Positions 32,147 to 58,443 of a stretch of 61,040 nt of DNA are shown here, piece by piece (position 1 is the stretch's first letter; each line of letters starts with the position of its first letter). The position numbers and the translations under genes were made by a program. The notes under the pieces were generated by a model. That model had not been told where the DNA came from. It searched no databases and saw only the letters and a program-made list of their open reading frames with translations. The DNA is from an uncultured Verrucomicrobiota bacterium. GTDB taxonomy: Bacteria; Verrucomicrobiota; Verrucomicrobiia; Limisphaerales; CAIQOK01. The stretch is from positions 1 through 61,040 of the forward strand of contig CAIQOK010000120.1 in assembly GCA_903873415.1 (NCBI GenBank), read 5' to 3'.

Positions 32147-32301
32147 CCGGGAAGACTAGCACGCGGCAGCGAACCGAGGCAATGACGGGGCGAAGCTGCG
32201 CGGCGCGGCTCCGGCGGGCGGGGCACGGATCGGCCTGCCGCTTGCCAAGTCGCGGGAATGGCGTAGGGTTGCAGGACACAATTCACGGAAAGGAGCTATC
32301 T

Positions 32302-32763
32302 ATGCCAGTCAATCAACTCAAAAAATATCTCGATGAGCAGCATGTGAAATATTTCAGCATCATCCACTCCGATGCCTACACCGCGCAGGAGGTGGCCGCC
32401 GCCGCGCATATCGCCGGGCGCAAGATGGCCAAGGTGGTGGTGGTGGAACTCGACGGTGAGACGGCTATGGCCGTGCTGCCCGCCGACCGGAAGGTGGTGC
32501 TGCAGGATCTGCGCGAGGTGACCGGCTCGGAACAGGTCCGGTTTGTCTCGGAATCCAAGTTCAAAGACCGATTTCCGGATTGTGAAATCGGTGCCATGCC
32601 TCCGTTCGGCAATCTCTATGGGATGCAGGTTTACGTGGCTGATCCTCTGGCCATGTCTGACACCATCGCTTTTAATGCCGGCACTCACAGCGAAGTGATC
32701 CAGATGGATTTCATTGACTTTGAGCGCTTGGTGCAGCCCAGGGTGGTGAGCTTTACCACCTAA
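32302..32763 (+). CDS. YbaK/EbsC-type aminoacyl-tRNA deacylase
   Basis: The 153-residue single-domain protein has the YbaK fold, with HSDAYTAQEVAAAAHI, the lysine-containing GRKMAKVVVVELDG and IGAMPPFGNLYGM near the C-terminus. Members cut mischarged tRNAs such as Cys- or Ala-tRNAPro; the exact substrate is not predictable. ATG at 32302 follows a clear AAGGAG site at 32290-32295, which fixes the start. It converges on the next gene with a 4-base overlap of the coding ends. Confidence 0.88.
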   Translation: MPVNQLKKYLDEQHVKYFSIIHSDAYTAQEVAAAAHIAGRKMAKVVVVELDGETAMAVLPADRKVVLQDLREVTGSEQVRFVSESKFKDRFPDCEIGAMPPFGNLYGMQVYVADPLAMSDTIAFNAGTHSEVIQMDFIDFERLVQPRVVSFTT

Positions 32764-45400: not shown

Positions 45401-46921
45401 ATGAGCACTAAACCCCTTCTTTCGATGCTTGGGATCTACAAGCGATTTCCCGGCGTGATCGCTCTGGACAGCGTCAGCCTGGAGGTGGGGCGCGGCGAGG
45501 TGGTGGCGCTTTGCGGCGAAAATGGCGCGGGTAAATCCACGCTCATGAAAATCCTCGGCGGTGTGTATCAGCCGGACGAGGGGTCGATTCAGATCGAAGG
45601 CCGGCCGGTGTCGATCGAGGATGTGACTGATGCGATGGGGTTGGGGGTGGCGTTCATTCATCAGGAGTTGAACGTGCTTGAGAACCTGGACGTGGCCTCG
45701 AACGTGTTTTTGGGGCGGGAGCCCCGGACGGCGCTGGGCCTGGTGGACAACGCGAAAATCCATGCCAACACGCTTCCGCTACTGCGCCGCTTGGGGTTGG
45801 AGGTTTCCAGCCGGACCCGGCTGGACCGGCTGTCGTTGGCGCAGCAGCAGATGGTTGAAATTGCCAAGGCGCTTTCACTCAATTCCCGGCTGATTATCAT
45901 GGACGAGCCGACCTCCAGCCTGACTTTGCAGGAGACCGACCGCCTGCTGTCCCTGGTGGTGGAGCTTCGTAATCAGGGGGTAAGTGTGGTCTATATTTCG
46001 CACCGGCTCGGCGAGGTGGATCGGATTGCGGATCGGGTGGTGGTGCTGCGGGATGGCAAGAATGCCGGGGCTCTGGAGCGTTCGGCGATCAGCCACGACC
46101 GCATTGTGGGGCTCATGGTCGGGCGGGAGATCAAGAGTTTCTATCAGGAATCCCACATTCCCAAGGTGCCGGGTTATTTCAAGGTCCGGAATGCGCGGTC
46201 CAGCCGCTATCCCGCCGCGACGGTTTCCTTTGACGCCGCCCGGGGGGAGATTTTGGGCTTTGCCGGGCTGGTTGGGGCGGGGCGCTCAGAGATCGCCAAG
46301 GCCATTGTCGGCTTGGACGAGCAGGGCGGGGCGGAGGTGAGCATCGGGGAGGAGCGAGTGGCGATCCATTCGGCTCGGGACGCCATCGCCAGCCGAATTT
46401 ATCTGGTGCCGGAGGACCGGCGCAGTGAGGGTTTGGTCGCGCCGATGAGCGTGCGGGAGAACATCACCTTGCCCTCGCTAGGGCGTTTTTCCTCATGCTT
46501 CCTCATCCGCCGGGACCGGGAGCGGCGGGTGGCTCGGGAACAGATCGAGTCGCTCAATATCAAAACGCCAGGCACCGAGGCCCGGGTCGTGAATTTGAGC
46601 GGTGGCAACCAGCAAAAGGTCGTGTTGGCCAAGTGGCTTTCGCTGGATCCCCGGGTGATGATTCTCGACGAACCCACGCGCGGGATTGACGTGGGAGCCA
46701 AGGCGGAGATCTATCGGCTCATGCGGGTTCTGGCGGACGGGGGCGGGGTGATTCTGATGATTAGCAGCGACATGGAAGAGGTGTTGCATGTGAGCGACCG
46801 GATAGCTGTCATGCACGAGGGCCGCATCAGCGGCTTGCTGGAACGGCCTGATTGCACGGAGGAGAACATCATGAATCTGGCTGTGGGCAAGCCGATTTCG
46901 GCCGCCAAGCCGGCGTGCTGA
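45401..46921 (+). CDS. Sugar ABC transporter ATP-binding protein (RbsA/MglA/XylG type)
   Basis: The 506-residue protein has two ABC domains in tandem. The first has Walker A GENGAGKST (39-47), signature LSLAQQQMVEIAKAL and Walker B LIIMDEPTSSL. The second has the degenerate Walker A GLVGAGRSEIAKAIVG usual in this family, then LSGGNQQKVVLAKWL and VMILDEPTRGID. It would energise ribose, galactose or xylose import. The membrane permease and the binding protein normally encoded next to it are absent: the next gene starts the respiratory operon after 300 bases. It may work with partners elsewhere. Confidence 0.92.
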   Translation: MSTKPLLSMLGIYKRFPGVIALDSVSLEVGRGEVVALCGENGAGKSTLMKILGGVYQPDEGSIQIEGRPVSIEDVTDAMGLGVAFIHQELNVLENLDVASNVFLGREPRTALGLVDNAKIHANTLPLLRRLGLEVSSRTRLDRLSLAQQQMVEIAKALSLNSRLIIMDEPTSSLTLQETDRLLSLVVELRNQGVSVVYISHRLGEVDRIADRVVVLRDGKNAGALERSAISHDRIVGLMVGREIKSFYQESHIPKVPGYFKVRNARSSRYPAATVSFDAARGEILGFAGLVGAGRSEIAKAIVGLDEQGGAEVSIGEERVAIHSARDAIASRIYLVPEDRRSEGLVAPMSVRENITLPSLGRFSSCFLIRRDRERRVAREQIESLNIKTPGTEARVVNLSGGNQQKVVLAKWLSLDPRVMILDEPTRGIDVGAKAEIYRLMRVLADGGGVILMISSDMEEVLHVSDRIAVMHEGRISGLLERPDCTEENIMNLAVGKPISAAKPAC

Positions 46922-46996
46922 GAGCGGACTGCGGGCGGGGTCTGCGGAGCAGCGCGCGGTAAATAAAACTTATTACTCTCATTCCCCGGGCCGAAA

Positions 46997-47014
46997 TCGT
47001 GAAATATTTCACAA
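46997..47014. promoter_or_regulatory. Rex-type operator upstream of the ACIII operon
   Basis: TCGTGAAATATTTCACAA matches the Rex consensus TTGTGAA-N4-TTCACAA at all but one of its defined positions, and its core GTGAAATATTTCAC is a perfect 14-bp palindrome. Rex represses respiratory and fermentative genes when NADH is low and is released by high NADH/NAD+. The site lies 7 bases upstream of a candidate -35. No rex gene is in the window. Confidence 0.6.
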
Positions 47015-47021
47015 ACTTTGC

Positions 47022-47049
47022 TTGCCTCCCGGGCTCCTGCCACTATTTT
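47022..47049 (+). promoter_or_regulatory. Candidate promoter of the ACIII operon
   Basis: TTGCCT (47022-47027) and TATTTT (47044-47049) are spaced by 16 bases, leaving a leader of about 165 bases before the actA ATG. The Rex-like site is directly upstream. Confidence 0.4.
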
Positions 47050-47220: not shown

Positions 47221-47874
47221 ATGTCAGCGATTTTTCCCAAGTGGACCAATCGGCTGCCGCTGATGATTATCTGCGGCCTGCTGCTCACCGGGAGTGCGGT
47301 GATAGCCGGGGTGTGGTATTACTTCACCCCCGAGTACACCCGTGCGGGCTACCAACCGGTTCAGCCGGTGGCCTTCTCCCACAACATCCACGCCGGCCAA
47401 CTCGGCATGGACTGCCGTTATTGTCACACCGGAGTGGAGAAGTCCTGGTTCTCCAACATACCGGCCAGTTCCACCTGCATGAACTGTCACAACCAGGTTC
47501 TCAAAGACGACCCGAAGTTGGCCTTGGTGCGGGAGAGCGCCGCCAGCGGTAAGCCGATCCCCTGGGTCCAAATCCACCGTGTTCCCGACTTTGTCTACTT
47601 TAACCATTCCGTGCATGTGAACCGGGGTGTCAGTTGCGTGGAGTGCCACGGTCGTATCGACCAGATGGACGAGGTGTATCATGCCAAGTCCTTCAGCATG
47701 TCCTTTTGCTTGGAATGCCATCGCAACCCCGCCGCCAAGCTACGTCCGCTTGAAAAAATCACCGACCTCGGCTGGAAGCAGCCTTCCGTGGAAGCGCAAC
47801 ATGCCTTCGGAACCCAAGCATTGGAGCATTGGAAGGTGGAATCCCTGCAAAACTGCTCCGCCTGCCATCGATGA
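47221..47874 (+). CDS. actA: Alternative complex III subunit A, pentahaem cytochrome c
   Basis: The 217-residue protein has one N-terminal membrane helix (about 11-34) and five CxxCH haem sites at 65-69, 86-90, 139-143, 163-167 and 212-216. This is the class III-like cytochrome of ACIII, which passes electrons from the Fe-S subunit to the periplasmic cytochromes. It is the first gene of the operon, and its stop overlaps the actB start (ATGA). Confidence 0.95.
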   Translation: MSAIFPKWTNRLPLMIICGLLLTGSAVIAGVWYYFTPEYTRAGYQPVQPVAFSHNIHAGQLGMDCRYCHTGVEKSWFSNIPASSTCMNCHNQVLKDDPKLALVRESAASGKPIPWVQIHRVPDFVYFNHSVHVNRGVSCVECHGRIDQMDEVYHAKSFSMSFCLECHRNPAAKLRPLEKITDLGWKQPSVEAQHAFGTQALEHWKVESLQNCSACHR

Positions 47875-50800
47875 AAACCATTCCTCCCGCCTGTCCCGAA
47901 CCTGAATTTGGCCGCAAATACTGGCGCGGTCTGGATCAACTGGCCGAGACACCCGAATTCCGCCACTGGCTGGAACGCGAGTTCCCCCAAGGTGCCGGCG
48001 AGTTCACTGATCCGGTTTCACGCCGCAATTTTGTGCAGATCATGTCCGCCTCCTTTCTGCTGGCGGGTGTGGGGTTGGGGGCGACCGGTTGCCGCCGGCC
48101 GGTCGAGAAGCTTGAGCCCTTTGGCAAACAGCCTGACGATTACGTCTACGGCACCTCGCGTTACTACGCCACCTCGATGCCGACCCGCGGTGGGGCCGTG
48201 CCCCTAGTGGCCCGCTCTTATGACGGCCGGCCGGTCAAGCTGGAGGGCAATCCTCATCATCCCGACAGCAATGGCGGCACTGACCGCTGGGCGCAAGCGG
48301 CGATACTGAACCTCTACGATCCGGATCGCAGCCGTCATTTCTACTCGGGTGGCACGACCACCTCCATCGAGTCGGCAATCGATTTTCTGTCGGGTTTTTC
48401 CAAGAAGGCCCAGGCCAACGGTGGTGAAGGGCTGGCTTTCCTGATCGAAAGCAACAACTCGCCATCCCGCTCGCGACTGCAGCAGTTGATCAGCTCCAGA
48501 CTCCCCAAAGCCCGCTGGTTCCTGCACGAGGCGATCGACACGGACATCCACCGGCGCGCGGCCTCCCAGGCATTCGGTGAATCTGTGCAGCCGCGCTTTA
48601 AATTCGAGGCCGCCAAGGTAATCGTCTCACTCGATTGCGATTTTATCGGTTCGGAGGAGGAATCCCACAATCACATCCGCCGCTTCACCCAAGGGCGCAA
48701 GATGGAGAAGGCGGGCGATTCCATGAGCCGCCTCTATATCGTGGAAGCGCTGATGTCGTTGACCGGGGTCAACGCCGATCACCGCCTGCGTTTGCCTGCC
48801 AGTGCGGTCGGGCAAATCGCCTCGGCGTTGATGGCTGAGGTCACAGGGAGTGTGAATGCAGTCGGTTTGCCGTCCGGGGTAAAGCCGGCTTGGGTGGCGG
48901 AATGCGCCAAGGATCTTCTGGCCAACAAGGGCGCTTCCCTAGTCGTGGCCGGTCACCGGCAACCTTTGGAAGTGCATCTGCTGGCCCACGCCCTCAATGC
49001 CGCCCTAGGCAACTTGGGCAAGACCATTGAATTCATTCCGGCACCCGATTTTCGCGAAGCCGGGATTGTCGAATTAGCCGCAGCACTGAATGCCGGTCAG
49101 GTCAACACCCTTGTGATCCTCGGGGCCAACCCCGGCTATACCGCCCCTGTCGATTTGGACTGGTCCAAAACGCAGCGTAAAGCAAAGACGGTGATTCGGT
49201 TGGGTTACTACGAGGACGAGACTTTTGCCGACTGCGATTGGCATATTCCCTTGGCTCACTTTCTGGAATCATGGGGTGATGTGCGGACCAGCGATGGGAC
49301 CCTTGTCCCGGTGCAACCGCTGATTGCTCCCTTGTTCAGCGGGTGGACCGAGTTGGATTTGCTCGCTCGCATTGCCGGGGAGACCGTGACGAGTCCTTAT
49401 GAAATCGTCCGCGCCACTTTTGGCAAGCTGGCAAGCGGGGATGTGGAATTGGCTTGGCGCAAGTTTCTTTACTCGGGGTATCTTGAGAACTCGGCCGCCC
49501 AGCCGGTGGAAGTGCGGTTGGACCGGAGCCAAGTCGACAAAGCCTTGTCTGGCGTGGCGGTGGTGGCGGTCGGCAAGGAAAAGCTCGAAGTGGTTTTTCA
49601 TCGCGACCACAGTGTTGACGACGGGCGCTACGGCAACAACGGCTGGCTCCATGAGTTGCCCGATCCGGTCACAAAACTGGTTTGGGATAATGCCGTTTTA
49701 GTGAGTCGCAAGACCGCCGTTGAACTGGGAGTCAAGAACAACGACATCGTCAAAATCGAGTTGGGCGGTCGATCCGTTCACGGCCCTGTGTTCATCCAGC
49801 CCGGGATGGCTGATTTCACCCTTGGCCTGGCTCTTGGTTACGGCCGTGAAAAAAGCGGACGGGTAGGGAAGGGGATTGGTTTCAACACCTATGCCTTGAG
49901 AACAGCCGCCGCCCAAAACATCACCGTAGGAGCCGGAGTCGCCAAAACCGGAGGTGTGTTCGAGCTGGTCAGCACCCAGACACATTGGTCGATGGAGGGC
50001 CGCCCGATTATTCGCGAGGCAAATTTGGAGCAGTTCCAGGCCCATCCCGAATTCGCCAAGTCGATGAATGCGGAGATGCCCCCCGCTTCAGGACCTTTCT
50101 ATCCCAGTCCCTTCGACGACTTGAAGAAGACGGGTCACCACCAGTGGGGGATGTCGATTGATCTGAACTCATGCGTTGGCTGTTCGGCCTGCATGGTGGC
50201 CTGTCAGAGCGAGAACAACGTCCCGATTGTTGGCAAAGACCAAGTCAATCGCGGCCGCGACATGCACTGGATCCGGATTGACCGTTATTACTCGGGAGAT
50301 CCGGCCAAGGAGAAGTTTCTCGACACGTTCAAGGTGGATGAGAAACAGCAGTTTGAGGAATGGATTGATGACGTTCAGGTCGTCACCCAGCCAATGCTTT
50401 GCCAGCACTGCGAATCGGCGCCGTGCGAAAACGTTTGTCCGGTCAATGCGACCGTGCACGACCAGGAAGGGTTGAACCTGATGGTTTACAACCGCTGCGT
50501 CGGCACACGTTATTGCTCCAACAACTGCCCCTATAAGGTCCGCAGGTATAATTATCTCGATTACAACAAGCGCCCCCTTCAAGAGCTCAAGGGGCCCTTT
50601 TACAACAACGCAGTGACCCATAAGACCGACGGCGAATGGGACTTGTTGCGCTGGTGGCGGGATCCCAACTCAGGCATGCGCACGAGCGACGAATGGGATC
50701 TCATCAAGATGCTCAAAAACCCGGATGTCACCGTCCGGATGCGCGGCGTCATGGAGAAGTGCACTTTCTGCGTCCAGCGCATTCAGCAGGCCGAGATCGC

Positions 50801-51176
50801 CCAGAAGGTCAAGGCCCGGGATACCGGGGACATTCTGGTGCCCGATGGTGCCGCGTCGAAGGAACCTGCCGCACTGAAGACGGCGTGCCAGCAGGCTTGT
50901 CCGGCCGGGGCAATCGTGTTCGGCAACATTGCCGATCCCGAAAGCCGCGTTTCCAAGTTGAAGGCCCAGCAGCGGGATTACTCGGTCCTCGACTTCCTGT
51001 TGACAAAGCCGCGCACCAGCTATCTGGCCAAAGTGCGCAATCCAAATCCTAAGATGCCCGATTACACCGAGTCTCCGTTGAGCCTCGAAGAATATATAAA
51101 GAAGATGGGAAGCCCGTTTGAACCTCATGGCGAGGCCGAAGGCGCCGCACACGCGGCGGAGAAAGGAAAGCTGTAA
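47871..51176 (+). CDS. actB: Alternative complex III subunit B, molybdopterin-like/Fe-S protein
   Basis: The 1101-residue protein has a twin-arginine motif ([15 protein letters not shown]), a large domain of molybdopterin-oxidoreductase fold (about 80-720) that in ACIII carries no Mo cofactor, and a ferredoxin-type domain (about 740-1010) with four cysteine sets: [39 protein letters not shown] and CTFCVQRI, plus CQQACPAGA. These bind three [4Fe-4S] and one [3Fe-4S] clusters in the known complex. A start at 47829 is possible, but ATG 47871 overlaps the actA stop as usual in this operon. Confidence 0.95.
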
Positions 51177-52600
51177 TGGCCTCCACTGATAAAACCATGG
51201 CGTTGCCGGAGACTCCGGCCGAACTGGAGCGCATCCCTCTGGTCAGCAACCAGCGCAGCATAGGCTGGATCTCCGATCAGGTCTGCGCCATCATGGAGGG
51301 CAAGCTGCCCATGTGGTGGTGGGCCGCATTCATCCCCAGCCTCATGCTTTTGTGTCTTTTGGGGACCATGCTGGTTTATCAGGTCACCACCGGTGTAGGT
51401 GTCTGGGGCAACCGGCACCCCGTCATGTGGGGTTGGGATATCATCAACTTCGTTTGGTGGATCGGCATCGGTCACGCCGGGACCTTGATTTCCGCCATCT
51501 TGTTCCTGCTCCGCCAGAAGTGGCGCACTGCAGTTAATCGCGCATCGGAAGCAATGACAATTTTTGCGGTGATGTGCGCCGGTATTTATCCCGCGCTCCA
51601 CGTCGGTCGTGTCTGGTATGACTGGTGGCTCTTCCCCATCCCTAATTCCAACGGGATATGGCCCCAGTTCCGTTCTCCGCTCATGTGGGACGTGTTCGCC
51701 GTGTCCACTTATTTCACCGTCTCTGTTCTCTTCTGGTATATGGGATTGATTCCCGACCTGGCAGTGATGCGGGACCGCTGCACCACCAAGGTCCGCCAGT
51801 TTTTTTACGGTCTGTTTTCCCTGGGATGGACCGGGTCCAACCGGCACTGGCGCAATTACGAGAAGGCCTATCTTATTCTCGCCGGGGTCTCCACCCCGCT
51901 GGTGCTCTCCGTGCACTCAATCGTCTCCCTTGATTTCGCCGTGTCACAATTGCCCGGATGGCACACGACCATCTTCCCTCCCTATTTCGTGGCCGGTGCG
52001 GTGTTTTCCGGATTCGGCATGGTTTTGACGCTGCTTGTTCCTTTGCGCTCGATGTTCAAGCTGGAAGATGTGATTACGATGCGCCACATCGATATCATGT
52101 GCAAAGTGACTCTGGCAACAGGGTCCATTGTGGGTTACGCCTACGGAATGGAGTTCTTCATCGCTTGGTACAGCGGCAATCCCTCCGAGCAGTTCCATTT
52201 CCTCAATCGCGCTTTCGGTCCCTACCAGTGGGGATGGATCATGATGATGTCCTGCAACACTCTGGTCCCACAGTTGTTCTGGTTCAAAAAGTTCCGCCAG
52301 AATCTCAAGTATGTCTTTATCATCTCCATTCTGGTCAACATCGGGATGTGGTTCGAGCGTTTTGTGATCATTGTGATCGGTCTGCACCGGGATTTCCTCC
52401 CGTCGAACTGGGCATACTTCAAGCCGACTTGGGTGGATATTTGCACCTTTCTGGGCACCTTCGGCCTGTTCTTTACCCTGTTCCTGCTGTTCCTGCGGTT
52501 CCTTCCGATGATTGCTATCTCGGAAGTCAAGGGCGTGACACCGCAGGCCGACCCGCATCATCCCTTGGGCGGCGCAAAACCCAAAAACAACGGCCATTGA
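51176..52600 (+). CDS. actC: Alternative complex III subunit C, NrfD-like quinol-binding membrane protein
   Basis: The 474-residue protein has about ten transmembrane helices, beginning [20 protein letters not shown]. NrfD-family traits include [35 protein letters not shown], and [20 protein letters not shown]. In ACIII it is the site of quinol oxidation and probable proton translocation. The ATG at 51176 overlaps the actB stop (TAATG). Confidence 0.95.
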
Positions 52601-52622: not shown

Positions 52623-53165
52623 ATGAATGGCAATTCCCCAAAACCTTATGGTGTGATAGCGGAGTTCATAACTCCGGCCGACGTTATGCACGCCGCCGAA
52701 AAGGTCCGCGACGCCGGCTACAAACGCTGGGATGTGTTCACGCCCTTTCCGGTGCATGGCATGGACAAGGCCATGGGTTTGGGCAACTCCAAGGTGGGCT
52801 GGTTCGCTTTTCTTGGCGGGGTTACCGGTTACACGACCGGCATGCTGATGATATGGTATCTCAACGCTGTCGATTATCCCCTGGTGATAGGGGGCAAGCC
52901 CATGTTCAGCCCCTTTTCGGCATTCCCACCCTCCTACGAACTGACCATTCTCTTTAGCGCTTTTGGCTCGCTGTTCGGAATGATGTTTTTGAACCGTCTG
53001 CCGCGCCTGCACCATCCTCTTTTGAAAAACCGCCGCTTCGCGCGCGTCACCCACGACCGTTATTTTCTGGTGGTCGAGTGCGCCGACCCGAAATATTCGG
53101 AGATAGCGACTCATAAATTATTGGAACAAACGGGCAGCAGCCACATCGAGGTTGTGGAGGAATAA
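52623..53165 (+). CDS. actD: Alternative complex III subunit D (DUF3341)
   Basis: The 180-residue protein starts with a soluble segment (YGVIAEFITPADVMHAAEKV, then KRWDVFTPFPVHGMDKAMG) and has two central membrane helices (about 58-80 and 97-120), a short cytoplasmic domain following. This is the standard ActD layout. It follows actC after 22 bases, and its stop overlaps actE (TAATG). Confidence 0.93.
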   Translation: MNGNSPKPYGVIAEFITPADVMHAAEKVRDAGYKRWDVFTPFPVHGMDKAMGLGNSKVGWFAFLGGVTGYTTGMLMIWYLNAVDYPLVIGGKPMFSPFSAFPPSYELTILFSAFGSLFGMMFLNRLPRLHHPLLKNRRFARVTHDRYFLVVECADPKYSEIATHKLLEQTGSSHIEVVEE

Positions 53166-53812
53166 TGCGTTACTTTTTACTTATCTTTGTTGTGGGGGTT
53201 CTGGCCGTTACAGGCATAGCCGGACGCCGCGGGGCCCATTCGCGCAATACTCCGTTGCAGATTTTCGCCGACATGAAGCGGCAGTCCAAGCTGCGCCCCC
53301 AGACACCCAACGCTTTCTTTGCCAGCGGCGTCAGCTCGCAGCTGCCTGTTCCCGGCACTATCGCTCATCTTCCCGGGCTTCAGGTCGGGGATCAGGTGAT
53401 TCCTCCCTATCAAGACGCTCCGGTGCTTACGGGGCTTGAGACTGGCTCGACTAATTACGTTCAAAACAACCCGCTGCCTGTCACCGCCGTTCTCCTTAAG
53501 CGCGGTCAGGAACGCTTCAACATCTATTGCGCCCCCTGTCACGGGCAGACCGGTGAAGGTAATGGTATCACCAAGAAAATCGGCGCCATGGGCGTCGTCG
53601 CCAACCTCCATGACAAGAGGATCGTGGAGCTTCCGGATGGTGAGATTTATCATACGATCACCTATGGCAAGAATTTGATGGGCCCCTATGGGCCTAACGT
53701 TCCGGTGCCCGACCGCTGGGCCATCGTGGCCTATCTGCGGACCTTGCAGTTAAGCCAGTTGGGACTTGTGCAGGACGTGCCTCAACCCCTTCAGGGAGCT
53801 TTGAAGAAGTAG
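53165..53812 (+). CDS. actE: Alternative complex III subunit E, monohaem cytochrome c
   Basis: The 215-residue protein has a hydrophobic N-terminus (signal or lipoprotein-like anchor), the DMKRQSKLRPQ segment typical of ActE, and one haem motif CAPCHGQTGEG with a later methionine (KNLMGPYG) as a probable axial ligand. It receives electrons from ActA and passes them towards a terminal acceptor. Confidence 0.93.
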   Translation: MRYFLLIFVVGVLAVTGIAGRRGAHSRNTPLQIFADMKRQSKLRPQTPNAFFASGVSSQLPVPGTIAHLPGLQVGDQVIPPYQDAPVLTGLETGSTNYVQNNPLPVTAVLLKRGQERFNIYCAPCHGQTGEGNGITKKIGAMGVVANLHDKRIVELPDGEIYHTITYGKNLMGPYGPNVPVPDRWAIVAYLRTLQLSQLGLVQDVPQPLQGALKK

Positions 53813-53815
53813 ACT

Positions 53816-55096
53816 ATGAGTTCGCATTCAAACAAACCGGCTCTGACTCCAATGGATTTGTCCCGTTGGCGCAAACTCCCCACCCTCCTGCTGGGCATTG
53901 GTTTCCTAATTGTGGCCGCGGGCTTCGTCGTGAGTTACAAGCACGACCACCTTCATAACTTCGCTTCCTCCTGGCTGGTGGCCTTTATGTTTTATCTCAG
54001 CGTTTGTCTGGGATCACTCTTTCTGGTTCTGGTTCATCATCTGTTTGATGCCGGCTGGTCCGTGCCCATCCGCCGCTTCCTGGAACATATCTCCACCCTC
54101 CTGTTTCCATGGATGGCTATTCTTTTTATTCCGGTGGCATTGTTATCCAACCGCCTCTACGAGTGGATGTCCCACACTGCCGCAACGGATCACGCGCTCA
54201 AGGCCAAACAGCCTCTCTTCACAATGACCGGTTTTTACGTCGTGGCTGTCGGCTGTTTTGCCATCTGGTGGCTGCTCTCCCACCGCCTCCGTTTCTGGTC
54301 CCTTGAGCAGGACCGCACCGGTGGCGCCAAACCCACCCACAAAATGCGATCCTACGCCTACTGGGGTATCTTCGCCTTCGCTGTCACTCTGACCTTTGCC
54401 GTGTTTATGTGGATGAAGGCCATGCAGCACGAATGGTTCTCCACAATGTATGGCGTTTATTACTTCGCCGGCAGTGTCTGGATGACTCTCGCCATGGCTT
54501 ATGTGATCACAATGCTATTGAACCGCCAAGGCATCCTGACCAGCGTGCTCCATGAGCATCAGTTCTATTATCTTGGATCACTGATGTTCGCTTTCACCGT
54601 CTTCTACGCCTACATCCATTTCTCTCAATACTTCATCATCTGGAATGCGAATCTGCCCGAGGAAACCTTCTGGTATGCCGTTCGCGAGAAAGGCACCTGG
54701 TTTTGGGTGGGGATGATTATTATTTTCGGCCATTTTTTCATCCCTTTTCTGGCCCTGTTGCGCATCGACTTGAAGAGCAAATTCTCTTACATGACCGCGG
54801 TTGCCGCTTGGGCTTGGGCCATGCATTATTTTGATATGACCTTCAACATCAAGCCGGTCGGTCATCCGGAGGGTTTCCCGTGGCAGTGGGTCTGGCTCGA
54901 CTTGGGCTGCCTGGCTTTCATGGGCGGTCTCCTTTCCAAAATCTTCCTGTCGAAATTCGTGGCTCATCCCCCATACCCTCTCAAAGACCCCCGCCTCTCT
55001 GAAGCCATGGGGCTCTATCACCCTGTCCCGACCCAGATTTCGGGCGGCGAACTCGACGAGACCGACGAAATGCCCGATGCCCCACGCTCCAAGTAA
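53816..55096 (+). CDS. actF: Alternative complex III subunit F, NrfD-like membrane protein
   Basis: The 426-residue protein has about ten membrane helices, including FMFYLSVCLGSLFLVLVHHL, FTVFYAYIHFSQYFIIWNAN and FIPFLALLRIDLK. It is the second NrfD-like subunit of ACIII and is thought to form a proton path rather than a quinol site. It starts 3 bases after actE, and the next gene follows after 6 bases. Confidence 0.94.
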   Translation: MSSHSNKPALTPMDLSRWRKLPTLLLGIGFLIVAAGFVVSYKHDHLHNFASSWLVAFMFYLSVCLGSLFLVLVHHLFDAGWSVPIRRFLEHISTLLFPWMAILFIPVALLSNRLYEWMSHTAATDHALKAKQPLFTMTGFYVVAVGCFAIWWLLSHRLRFWSLEQDRTGGAKPTHKMRSYAYWGIFAFAVTLTFAVFMWMKAMQHEWFSTMYGVYYFAGSVWMTLAMAYVITMLLNRQGILTSVLHEHQFYYLGSLMFAFTVFYAYIHFSQYFIIWNANLPEETFWYAVREKGTWFWVGMIIIFGHFFIPFLALLRIDLKSKFSYMTAVAAWAWAMHYFDMTFNIKPVGHPEGFPWQWVWLDLGCLAFMGGLLSKIFLSKFVAHPPYPLKDPRLSEAMGLYHPVPTQISGGELDETDEMPDAPRSK

Positions 55097-55102
55097 TTTC
55101 CC

Positions 55103-55486
55103 ATGAGCAGCCAAACTGAACCCTGCACCAATTGTAAATCCTGGATGGCCTATGCCGGCGGGATTCTGGGAGCCTCATTGATCGTGGCGGGTCTTGTGTG
55201 GGCGATGCGTCACTACACCCAAGTCGCGCCGCTCAATGCCAACCGCGCCGCAGAGCGGGCCGCCGCCCTCAAGGAACTCCGTTCCTCCGAGTCCGACACC
55301 TTGGAGACCGTTGCTTGGATCGATAAGAGCAAGGGAATGGTTCGCCTTCCGATTGAGGTCGCCAAGGAACTTGCCGTCAAGCTTTGGCAGAATCCTGCCG
55401 CCGCAAGAGCAGAGTTGATCTCCAGGCAGGAGAAGGCTTCCTTCGTCCCCCCGCCGCCTGCGCCCAAGCCCAGTGCGTTTGAATAA
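55103..55486 (+). CDS. Small membrane-anchored protein of the ACIII operon
   Basis: The 127-residue protein has a CxxC pair near its start (PCTNCKSW), one membrane helix (about 16-35), and a periplasmic part of about 90 residues ending in a proline-rich tail. The SKGMVRLPIEVAKELAVKLW segment resembles the short conserved stretch of small proteins found beside ACIII and caa3 genes. It may be an assembly factor or accessory subunit; there is no known catalytic motif. Confidence 0.75.
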   Translation: MSSQTEPCTNCKSWMAYAGGILGASLIVAGLVWAMRHYTQVAPLNANRAAERAAALKELRSSESDTLETVAWIDKSKGMVRLPIEVAKELAVKLWQNPAAARAELISRQEKASFVPPPPAPKPSAFE

Positions 55487-55502
55487 AAACAACGTCGACT
55501 CG

Positions 55503-56948
55503 ATGAACGAACGTTCTTCCAATCAGTCGGCCGCCACGGCGCCGGATGAAATTTCCCTTTCGTGTCGTGGCCCCCTGGTCATGCTTTTCCTCCACGCCGC
55601 CTTCTGGCTGGTGGCGGCCTCGGTGTTGGCCTTGGTTGCCTCGCTTAAATTCCATTCGCCGGCATTCCTCTCCGGATGCGCCTGGCTCACTTACGGCCGC
55701 GTTCATTCCGCCGCAGTCAACGCCCAACTCTACGGTTTTGCTGTCCAAGCCGGTCTGGGCGTCGCCCTCTGGATCATTGCCCAAACCGGCCGCTCCCCAC
55801 TGCCTCACCCATTGGGATTTATCATCGGCGCCGCTGTCTGGAATCTAGGTGTCCTCTCAGGCATCGTGGCTATCCTTGCCGGTCAAGGCACCGGCTATGA
55901 GAACCTCGAATTCCCCTTTTATTCAGCCCTTCTCTTGTTTCTTGGCTTTCTAGTTGTGGGTTCCGGCGCGCTGCTCGCCATCCACTCCCGCCGTGAGCGT
56001 TCCCTCACCCCGGCCCACTGGTTCCTCATCGCCGCACTCTTCTGGTTCCCATGGATTTTATCCGGCGCCTATCTTCTCTTGACTGTCTGGCCTGTGCGGG
56101 GTCTCATGCAATCAATGGTCGTCTGGTGGTTTGGCGGCAACCTGACTTTTGTGTGGTTGAGCCTAGTCGGACTGGCTGCCCTGTTCCATTTCATCCCCCA
56201 AATCCTAGGACGTCCACTTCATAGCCGTCAGATGGCGCTCTTCACCTTCTGGACTCTCCTCTTCTTTGGTAGTTGGACCGGAATTCCATCAACAGCCCCG
56301 GTGCCCGCGTGGATTCCTGCTCTTAGTGCCGTGATGACTCTGTTGACATTGGTGACTCTTCTTTCAGCATGGACCAACCTTCGCCAAACCAACTCCGGTG
56401 GCCAGCCGTTACCCGGCAACCTTGCCCCGCTTCGTTTTCTTCTGTTCGGTTTGGGCATGTTCCAGCTTGCCGGCTTGATGCGGATCGTCCTTAGCCTGCC
56501 TGTTCTTGGGCATATAACCAGCTTCACATGGTTTGCTGCGGCTCAAATCCAGCTCCAGTCCTTTGGCTTCTTCAGCATGGTCATGCTGGGCGCCGTTTAC
56601 TTCATCTTTCCCCGGCTCATGGGAACCGGATTGAGCTGCACCAAGGCCCCCCTCCGCCATTTCTGGCTGGCTGCCGTGGGTTGCCTGCTCGTTGCCCTGC
56701 CGTGGGCGTTGGGAGGTGTCGCCCAGGGACTCAAACTCGCTGACGCTTCGATTCCCTTCATGGTCATTAGCCACTCCACGCTTTCATTTTTGCGTGTAAG
56801 CTCCCTCGGTGAGGTGTTGATTCTGGTTTGTAACCTCATGTTTGCCATGAATTTGTTGATGACAACTACCCGATGCGCCTCCACCTTTTTTCTCCCCGCT
56901 TTTTTAGCGATCACCGCCCAAACGCCTAAGGCGGAGGTGAAACCATGA
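55503..56948 (+). CDS. CcoN-like membrane protein lacking haem and copper ligands (pseudo-oxidase subunit I)
   Basis: The 481-residue protein has about twelve hydrophobic helices and aligns along its length with cbb3 oxidase subunit I (CcoN): YGRVHSAAVNAQ (64-75) with YGRxRPxHTNA, YENLEFPFY, VVWWFGGN (206-213) with QWWYGHN, SWTGIPSTAP (257-266) with IWAGPHHLHYTALP, and AAAQIQLQSFGF (345-356) with TIGHVHAGALGW. At each place the ligand histidine is replaced (by Ala, Gly, Pro/Ser, Gln, Gln), and the crosslinked tyrosine position reads Phe. It can hardly reduce oxygen. The start could be GTG 55473, but ATG 55503 avoids overlap. Its stop overlaps the next gene. Confidence 0.85.
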   Translation: MNERSSNQSAATAPDEISLSCRGPLVMLFLHAAFWLVAASVLALVASLKFHSPAFLSGCAWLTYGRVHSAAVNAQLYGFAVQAGLGVALWIIAQTGRSPLPHPLGFIIGAAVWNLGVLSGIVAILAGQGTGYENLEFPFYSALLLFLGFLVVGSGALLAIHSRRERSLTPAHWFLIAALFWFPWILSGAYLLLTVWPVRGLMQSMVVWWFGGNLTFVWLSLVGLAALFHFIPQILGRPLHSRQMALFTFWTLLFFGSWTGIPSTAPVPAWIPALSAVMTLLTLVTLLSAWTNLRQTNSGGQPLPGNLAPLRFLLFGLGMFQLAGLMRIVLSLPVLGHITSFTWFAAAQIQLQSFGFFSMVMLGAVYFIFPRLMGTGLSCTKAPLRHFWLAAVGCLLVALPWALGGVAQGLKLADASIPFMVISHSTLSFLRVSSLGEVLILVCNLMFAMNLLMTTTRCASTFFLPAFLAITAQTPKAEVKP

Positions 56949-57823
56949 ACTACGGACCGCTTGTTTTCTTAACCGCTTTTGTGGCTCTCTCAGCCTCTTG
57001 GTTCGGTTTTGTCTTGACCCCCCAAATTCAAATCGGACGTTTGACGGAGTCGACCAACACCCTGAACACGGCTGAACTCTATCCGAAAGCGCGTCCGGGG
57101 CAGGCCGCCCAAGGCCTTCAGGTGTATCGCGCCAATGGCTGCGCCGCCTGTCACACCCAGCAGACCGTTCAAGAGGGCACTTCCATTGACGTTTATTTGC
57201 TTGAAGTCGGGACCAACGCCGCCGCCGTTGCCACCGCTCTGGTCAATGCCAATGTCGGATTCACCAGAATCGACGACCCAGGCTTTTTTCTTAACCTTCC
57301 TAAAAACATACTTCCCGGAACCACGATTGAAGCCGCCAAACGCGCTTTCAAAGGTGCCCAATCCGCGGGGGCCAAGGCCCAGATACGTATTAACCCCCAA
57401 GGACCGGATATAGCCCGCCATTGGGGCGTCCGTGGTTCGGTCGCGGCAGACTATCTTTTTGACCAGCCTGTCATGCTGGGATCCCAACGCGTCGGTCCCG
57501 ATCTCTCGAATGTGGGAGCCCGTCTACCGGATGTGAACTGGCACTTGCTCCATCTCTATGCTCCGCAGCAAGTGGTCAAAGGCTCCTTGATGCCGCCCCA
57601 CCGCTTTCTTTTCAACGTGTCCAAAGCCGGGCAACATCCTTCTCCTGACGCGCTGCAAGTTCCCCCAGAGGTCGCACCCGCTCCGGGTTATGAGGTTGTT
57701 CCAAAACCGGAGGCTCTTGCTCTTGCCGCTTATCTTGTGAGCCTGAATTCGTCCACACCTGTTTTTGAAACCCCGATGACTCTCGCTTCCAGCGCTACCT
57801 CAACCAATTCACCTGCGAAATGA
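56945..57823 (+). CDS. CcoO-like membrane-bound monohaem cytochrome c
   Basis: The 292-residue protein has one N-terminal membrane helix (about 5-25), the haem site CAACHTQQTV (66-75), and the CcoO-type motifs LFDQPVMLGSQRVGPDLSNV and WHLLHLYAPQQVVKGSLMPP with the axial methionine in MPP (216-218). Compared with CcoO it has a lineage-specific insert of about 70 residues after the haem motif. It overlaps the pseudo-CcoN stop (ATGA), so the two are made together and likely pair in the membrane. Confidence 0.88.
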   Translation: MNYGPLVFLTAFVALSASWFGFVLTPQIQIGRLTESTNTLNTAELYPKARPGQAAQGLQVYRANGCAACHTQQTVQEGTSIDVYLLEVGTNAAAVATALVNANVGFTRIDDPGFFLNLPKNILPGTTIEAAKRAFKGAQSAGAKAQIRINPQGPDIARHWGVRGSVAADYLFDQPVMLGSQRVGPDLSNVGARLPDVNWHLLHLYAPQQVVKGSLMPPHRFLFNVSKAGQHPSPDALQVPPEVAPAPGYEVVPKPEALALAAYLVSLNSSTPVFETPMTLASSATSTNSPAK

Positions 57824-58443
57824 GCCAGTCGATCAAACGTTCCGCTCCTGCCAGTCCGTCTTCCTCCCAGCCTTTGCTGAAGGAACCGGCTTTCCCCATC
57901 TGGCTGATCGTCTTTCTTACCCTCCTCCTCTATGCGGGAGCCGTTTATTTTGACGGGCATGGCTCCGGATTTCATCCTCAGGTCTATGCTCCCTACAGCT
58001 CTTACACCCAGCTCGCAGACCTTCAGATAACCGGACCGCCTAATCCTCTGGAGATTGGGTTCCGGGTTTATCACAAGCCATCTTGTGTCTCCTGCCATCA
58101 GGCCAGTGGCGCTGGGTCTCCCGGACAGTTTCCACCTCTGGTCGGTTCGGAGTGGGTACAGGAACCCGAGCCGGGCCGCATCATTCGCGCTGTCTTGAAC
58201 GGCCTTCAGGGACCCATCTCCGTCAAAAACCAGCAGTATAACAACGCCATGGTCGCCTGGGGGGGCGTCTTCAGTGATGAGGAAATAGCCGCCGTCATCA
58301 CTTATATCCGCCAAAATAAGGACTGGGGTAACAACGCCCCGGCCGTCACCGCTGACAGGGTCAAAGCCGTGCGTGAAAAGATCAAAGGCCATCCTGGTCC
58401 CTTCACAGCGGACGAATTGCTGAAAATTCCCGCCGCCGATTGA
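57820..58443 (+). CDS. Membrane-anchored monohaem cytochrome c, CcoP-like role
   Basis: The 207-residue protein has a polar start, one membrane helix (about 24-44), a haem motif CVSCHQASGAG (Cys89-His93) and a later methionine (NNAMVAWGGV) as likely axial ligand, in a class I cytochrome c fold. CcoP has two haems; this has one. ATG 57820 overlaps the previous stop. It is the last gene of the operon and the probable electron exit from the ACIII/pseudo-oxidase unit. Confidence 0.88.
   Translation: MSQSIKRSAPASPSSSQPLLKEPAFPIWLIVFLTLLLYAGAVYFDGHGSGFHPQVYAPYSSYTQLADLQITGPPNPLEIGFRVYHKPSCVSCHQASGAGSPGQFPPLVGSEWVQEPEPGRIIRAVLNGLQGPISVKNQQYNNAMVAWGGVFSDEEIAAVITYIRQNKDWGNNAPAVTADRVKAVREKIKGHPGPFTADELLKIPAAD

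Follow-up and report, generated by a model that had tools for sequence, protein, structure and literature searches.

A putative Rex operator before the alternative complex III operon of a Limisphaerales bacterium suggests NADH-linked control of its respiratory chain

Many bacteria use alternative complex III (ACIII) in place of the bc1 complex, and we came across no account of what sets its expression. The question is raised by an 18-bp inverted repeat, TCGTGAAATATTTCACAA, located on the forward strand at positions 46997-47014 of a 61,040-nt contig (the window, taken at its full length) from an uncultured Verrucomicrobiota bacterium: could it be the operator of a redox-sensing repressor? Only its second position, C in place of T, departs from the generalized Rex consensus TTGTGAANNNNTTCACAA (quoted from Ravcheev et al. 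2012; PMC5317091), so that the near-perfect operator, one base off consensus, described by an earlier sequence-only reading of the window was confirmed at exactly these positions. It lies 207 nt before actA, in a 299-nt intergenic gap bounded by an ABC-transporter ATPase gene, which ends at 46921, and by actA (47221). By shuffling, the expected number of motif matches with up to three mismatches in the window is 0.05. Across the 3.8-Mb host genome, TTGTGAAATATTTCACAA was found with up to three mismatches in 5 places and its reversed control in none, and TTGTGAANNNNTTCACAA with at most one mismatch in 4 places, against approximately 0.26 expected from the control. The match at 32342-32359 of the window (three mismatches) falls inside the gene for an aminoacyl-tRNA editing domain (32182-32763) and was discarded as a chance occurrence.

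Downstream of the operator, all on the same strand, we found the gene string of an ACIII operon, actABCDEF, with ActD recognizable and actF assigned by position. The first gene, actA (47221-47874), encodes the multiheme cytochrome c subunit of ACIII (Pfam Cytochrome_C7) and has orthologues in 125 of the 146 genomes sampled from the order. It is followed by an actB-like frame (47829-51176), whose true start may be internal, of molybdopterin-oxidoreductase-like plus 4Fe-4S type (Fer4, QrcB/QrcC-like and TAT-variant domains); by actC (51176-52600), for the NrfD family membrane subunit (PF03916, E=1.7e-23); by actD (52623-53165; PF11821 ActD, 222.7 bits); and by actE (53165-53812), for a mono-heme cytochrome c (PF13442). 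The actF candidate (53816-55096) gave no Pfam or NCBIfam match. After the ACIII genes, the same string continues at 55103-58443 with a divergent cbb3-like oxidase, ccoN/ccoO-like although far below the equivalog cut-offs, and a cytochrome c. The frames are those of subunit I (55473-56948; COX1, 118 bits; ccoN as the best NCBIfam match, below its cut-off), a FixO/ccoO-like mono-heme subunit (56945-57823; PF02433) and the cytochrome c (57820-58443; PF00034/PF13442).

Control of ACIII expression by the NADH/NAD+ ratio would follow from the binder belonging to the Rex family. The rex gene that such an operator implies was indeed present: the host genome has one, full-length, on contig C149. Its product carries the Rex winged-helix N-domain (PF06971, E=1.2e-17) and the Rossmann CoA/NAD(H)-binding domain (CoA_binding, PF02629), reaches 238.5 bits against the NCBIfam equivalog NF003993 (cut-off 217) and matches Rex chains in the PDB with E-values down to 1.5e-41, over alignments that include the region QLRKDLAYFG and the nucleotide motif GVGNLG. 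No site with fewer than three mismatches was found around rex in the host genome and four relatives; autoregulation is a common trait of Rex regulons, not a defining one.

We then asked how rex and the motif are distributed in 146 genomes of the order, the closest relatives by name being those of Verrucomicrobia subdivision 3 / Limisphaerales. Using TYGTGAAANNTTTCACRA with at most one mismatch, 92 genomes had both rex and the motif, 8 had rex only, 13 the motif only and 33 neither (odds ratio 29, Fisher p=6e-15), and with one genome per family the same four classes held 36, 2, 4 and 18 genomes (p=1.2e-9). Scanning up to 700 nt upstream of actA in 118 regions, and accepting up to two mismatches, we detected a site in 57 of the 89 rex-bearing genomes, compared with 6 of the 29 in which rex was not detected (Fisher p=7e-5), and the reversed control motif in 0 of 118. 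The six assemblies that retain the site without rex include incomplete ones and some with rex-bearing close relatives. The remaining 32 of the 89 rex-bearing genomes have no recognisable site upstream of actA, and the link to act has therefore often been gained or lost. Beyond the order, Chthoniobacter flavus has a perfect or near-perfect site before actA, and so do a further record labelled Chthoniobacteraceae and several labelled Verrucomicrobiales; no such site was found before actA in Opitutaceae, most Spartobacteria and Balneola records. Among 20 such outside genomes examined for rex, the gene occurred in 9/9 with the act site versus 1/11 without it (p=6e-5), although the sets were picked by presence of the site and the p-values, inflated because the genomes are related, serve as guides only. 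The motif is thus kept upstream of orthologous act operons, both within the order and in C. flavus and other lineages; its absence there would have refuted the sequence-only reading.

Which other genes share the operator? When no more than one mismatch is allowed, the host genome has four sites, and they precede the ACIII-cbb3-like operon (C120:46997, before actA), nuo (C151:18912, before nuoB), atp (C184:5630, around 50 nt before the atpB frame) and a class V aminotransferase gene (C156:19832, immediately before the ATG). An intergenic site with two mismatches (C93:12214) lies before a gene for a small secreted protein, after which come ctaA, ctaB and coxA. This ctaA-ctaB-coxA operon (aa3-type), elsewhere in the host genome, is a second oxidase operon, likewise linked to Rex. 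The other two-mismatch sites of the host (C40, C57, C150, C160, C168, C171 and C182) were rejected as chance matches: they lie mostly inside reading frames, are unlinked to respiration, and about 5 would be expected. We sampled 64 site-bearing loci in relatives, and in 56 of them a match to one of these five targets lay next to the site. At the remaining loci the site is inside reading frames (L258, L261, L271, L272, L276 and L285) or possibly intergenic (L274 and L278). Of the genes before which the sequence-only reading had suggested looking for the motif (act, nuo, cyd and adh), act and nuo did have it, and neither cyd nor adh appeared among the sites examined. Complex I, ACIII, the aa3-type oxidase operon and ATP synthase, the whole chain of oxygen respiration, appear to be under one redox switch. 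As far as we could check, ACIII and ctaAB-cox are additions to the known Rex targets, within an oxidative-phosphorylation regulon; a literature search, which did not cover the Ravcheev 2012 Rex regulon survey, returned no description joining Rex, redox-sensing and alternative complex III. In one relative (G011, C42; loci L296 and L063), the act operon lies next to the class V aminotransferase gene in divergent orientation, with two Rex sites in the intergenic region that they share.

The spacing between the operator and the candidate -35 is also conserved at act, cta and nuo. In the window, a candidate -35 element, TTGCCT (47022-47027), starts 7 bases beyond the operator end at 47014, the distance that had been read from the sequence earlier, and is followed after a 16-nt spacer by a candidate -10, TATTTT (47044-47049), which aligns with the TAAACAT-like -10 of relatives. 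The act promoter did not pass a generic sigma-70 scan; nonetheless, relatives keep the CTTGC of the -35 at the same spacing, and most of their act, cta and nuo promoters have it a few nt after the operator. In these relatives, the distance from the operator end to the TTG of a -35 is mostly 6-7 nt at act, where it ranges from 3 to 8 nt, mostly 5 nt at cta and 5-7 nt at nuo; most promoters of the three groups also have a -10-like TA element, at 15-19 nt. At atp, it is the operator itself that covers a presumed -35 and spacer, whereas the aminotransferase gene has a CTTGC approximately 17 nt upstream, which puts the operator over the presumed -10. Verrucomicrobiales-labelled act promoters have the operator over the presumed -35/spacer. 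The act operator of the window is centred at about -51 from the inferred start, upstream of the -35, and the long act leader gave no Rfam match. Several relatives (e.g. G009, G019, G132 and G089) have a TTGACG-like second possible -35 around 80-120 nt before the actA start, which may belong to a second promoter. The cta promoters of relatives (e.g. L060-L062, L264, L266 and L291) repeatedly show TGAATA...CGTCGAA-like sequences at 20-45 nt ahead of the Rex operator; these may form another promoter-specific box.

Act promoters hold a further element. In those of relatives (e.g. L020, L021 and L160), the box CTWAT-N7-ATTAA has its start 28 nt ahead of the operator and 51-52 nt ahead of CTTGC, and 48 of 118 act promoters contain it, compared with 0.3 in shuffles. 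The window has a degenerate form, CTTATTACTCTCATTCC, on the forward strand at 46969-46985; its distances to the operator start (28 nt) and to CTTGC (52 nt) are exactly those of the relatives. The 51-52 nt spacing from box to CTTGC was kept in 22 of 24 promoters with a Rex operator and in 18 of 24 without one, and the strict form of box plus -35 occurred in 22 places in the 146 genomes, 21 of them at an act promoter. With the same spacing whether or not an operator is there, and a strict form nearly confined to act, the box is independent of Rex and act-specific. It probably serves as an activator or alpha-CTD site with Rex interposed, and its fixed spacing points to a second regulator of ACIII.

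Three other explanations have to be set against a Rex repressor. A lone 18-bp match in one genome could be a coincidence, either a chance palindrome or a structural element with no regulator; with near-zero controls, five functionally coherent operons, a conserved promoter spacing and the joint absence of motif and rex, we give this practically no weight. One could also argue for a CRP/FNR-type activator as the binder. TGTGA-N6-TCACA, the inner core of the perfect motif, also has the core half-sites and spacing of CRP, but the window site itself has CGTGA and the host genome contains only a weak, partial CRP-HTH match. Across genomes, the association between full CRP-type HTH genes and the motif is negative (odds ratio 0.23), and the motif is found in 63 of 67 rex-bearing genomes without a strong CRP-type match and in only 9 of 34 genomes that have such a match and no rex. 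We rejected this binder on its co-occurrence pattern and regard it as very improbable.

A more serious contender keeps Rex as the binder and changes the sign of its action: Rex would activate act (and nuo and cta) from just upstream of the -35, and would be a repressor at atp and at the aminotransferase gene, working there from sites in the core promoter. The nearly fixed gap of 5-7 bp between operator and -35 in act, nuo and cta speaks for it, since many activators act from there, as do the atp and aminotransferase operators, which instead overlap presumed promoter elements. The act operator is moreover unlike the footprinted nuo and atp promoters of Streptomyces avermitilis, where the site is on the core promoter. 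Yet in that species Rex represses both operons directly, with footprints of 27-29 nt over the 18-bp site (PMC5355995). Because of that extent of protection, a Rex footprint at act would reach the -35, and from this promoter geometry we favour repression at act, whether through occlusion or through the loss of a contact made upstream. The overlap of the act operator with the presumed -35/spacer in other orders fits repression as well, and switching respiration on at low NADH would be physiologically odd. Activation by Rex is therefore unlikely in our view, if less so than the other two alternatives.

Repression by Rex is the reading that we retain. Very probably, 46997-47014 is a functional Rex operator through which Rex, releasable by NADH, lowers transcription of the ACIII-cbb3-like operon, in co-regulation with nuo, ctaAB-cox, atp and the class V aminotransferase gene. 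We infer the binding, the NADH response and the repression at act, together with its mechanism, from sequence comparisons. At a low NADH/NAD+ ratio, Rex would bind the operator and reduce transcription of the operon. When NADH builds up, through limiting oxygen or an excess of electron supply, it would release Rex, and the operon would be induced along with the four other targets. At act, Rex would be placed between the upstream act-specific box and a -35 (CTTGC) that is weak. Its footprint would then lie directly against the -35 and keep the box from communicating with RNA polymerase. The broader proposal, that in Verrucomicrobiota one NADH sensor serves complex I, ACIII, the oxidases and ATP synthase, and that at act Rex works by anti-activation from its place between the newly found act-specific activator box and the -35, is more tentative, and we hold it as a possibility somewhat short of an even chance. 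To our knowledge, such a mode has not been reported for Rex. If true, the NADH/NAD+ ratio would govern ACIII jointly with complex I, oxidases and ATP synthase, which would provide a simple, testable respiratory control circuit for a phylum of mostly uncultured environmental bacteria.

The closest known counterpart is the Rex regulon of S. avermitilis (PMC5355995), which has the same operator consensus and likewise includes nuo and F-ATP synthase among its targets; its Rex leaves the DNA when NADH rises, as we propose here. The two systems differ in the terminal oxidase under control, cyd (bd) in S. avermitilis and the ACIII-cbb3-like and ctaAB-cox operons in our case, in the autoregulation of rex-hem, for which no counterpart site was found at rex here, and in the placement of the sites, which overlap or lie downstream of the -35 in S. 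avermitilis, whereas the act site precedes it. The Rex regulons of Caldicellulosiruptor bescii and Thermotogales (PMC6391272) include an aminotransferase of class V / serine-pyruvate type, as at C156:19832 here, although the targets listed for C. bescii are hydrogenases, oxidoreductases and fermentation-linked genes rather than genes of aerobic respiration. Finally, Caldithrix abyssi (PMC5317091) also combines Rex and ACIII in one genome, and the same consensus was used for it; its putative Rex site stands before a rex-hydrogenase gene cluster, in contrast to the operator described here, which stands before act.
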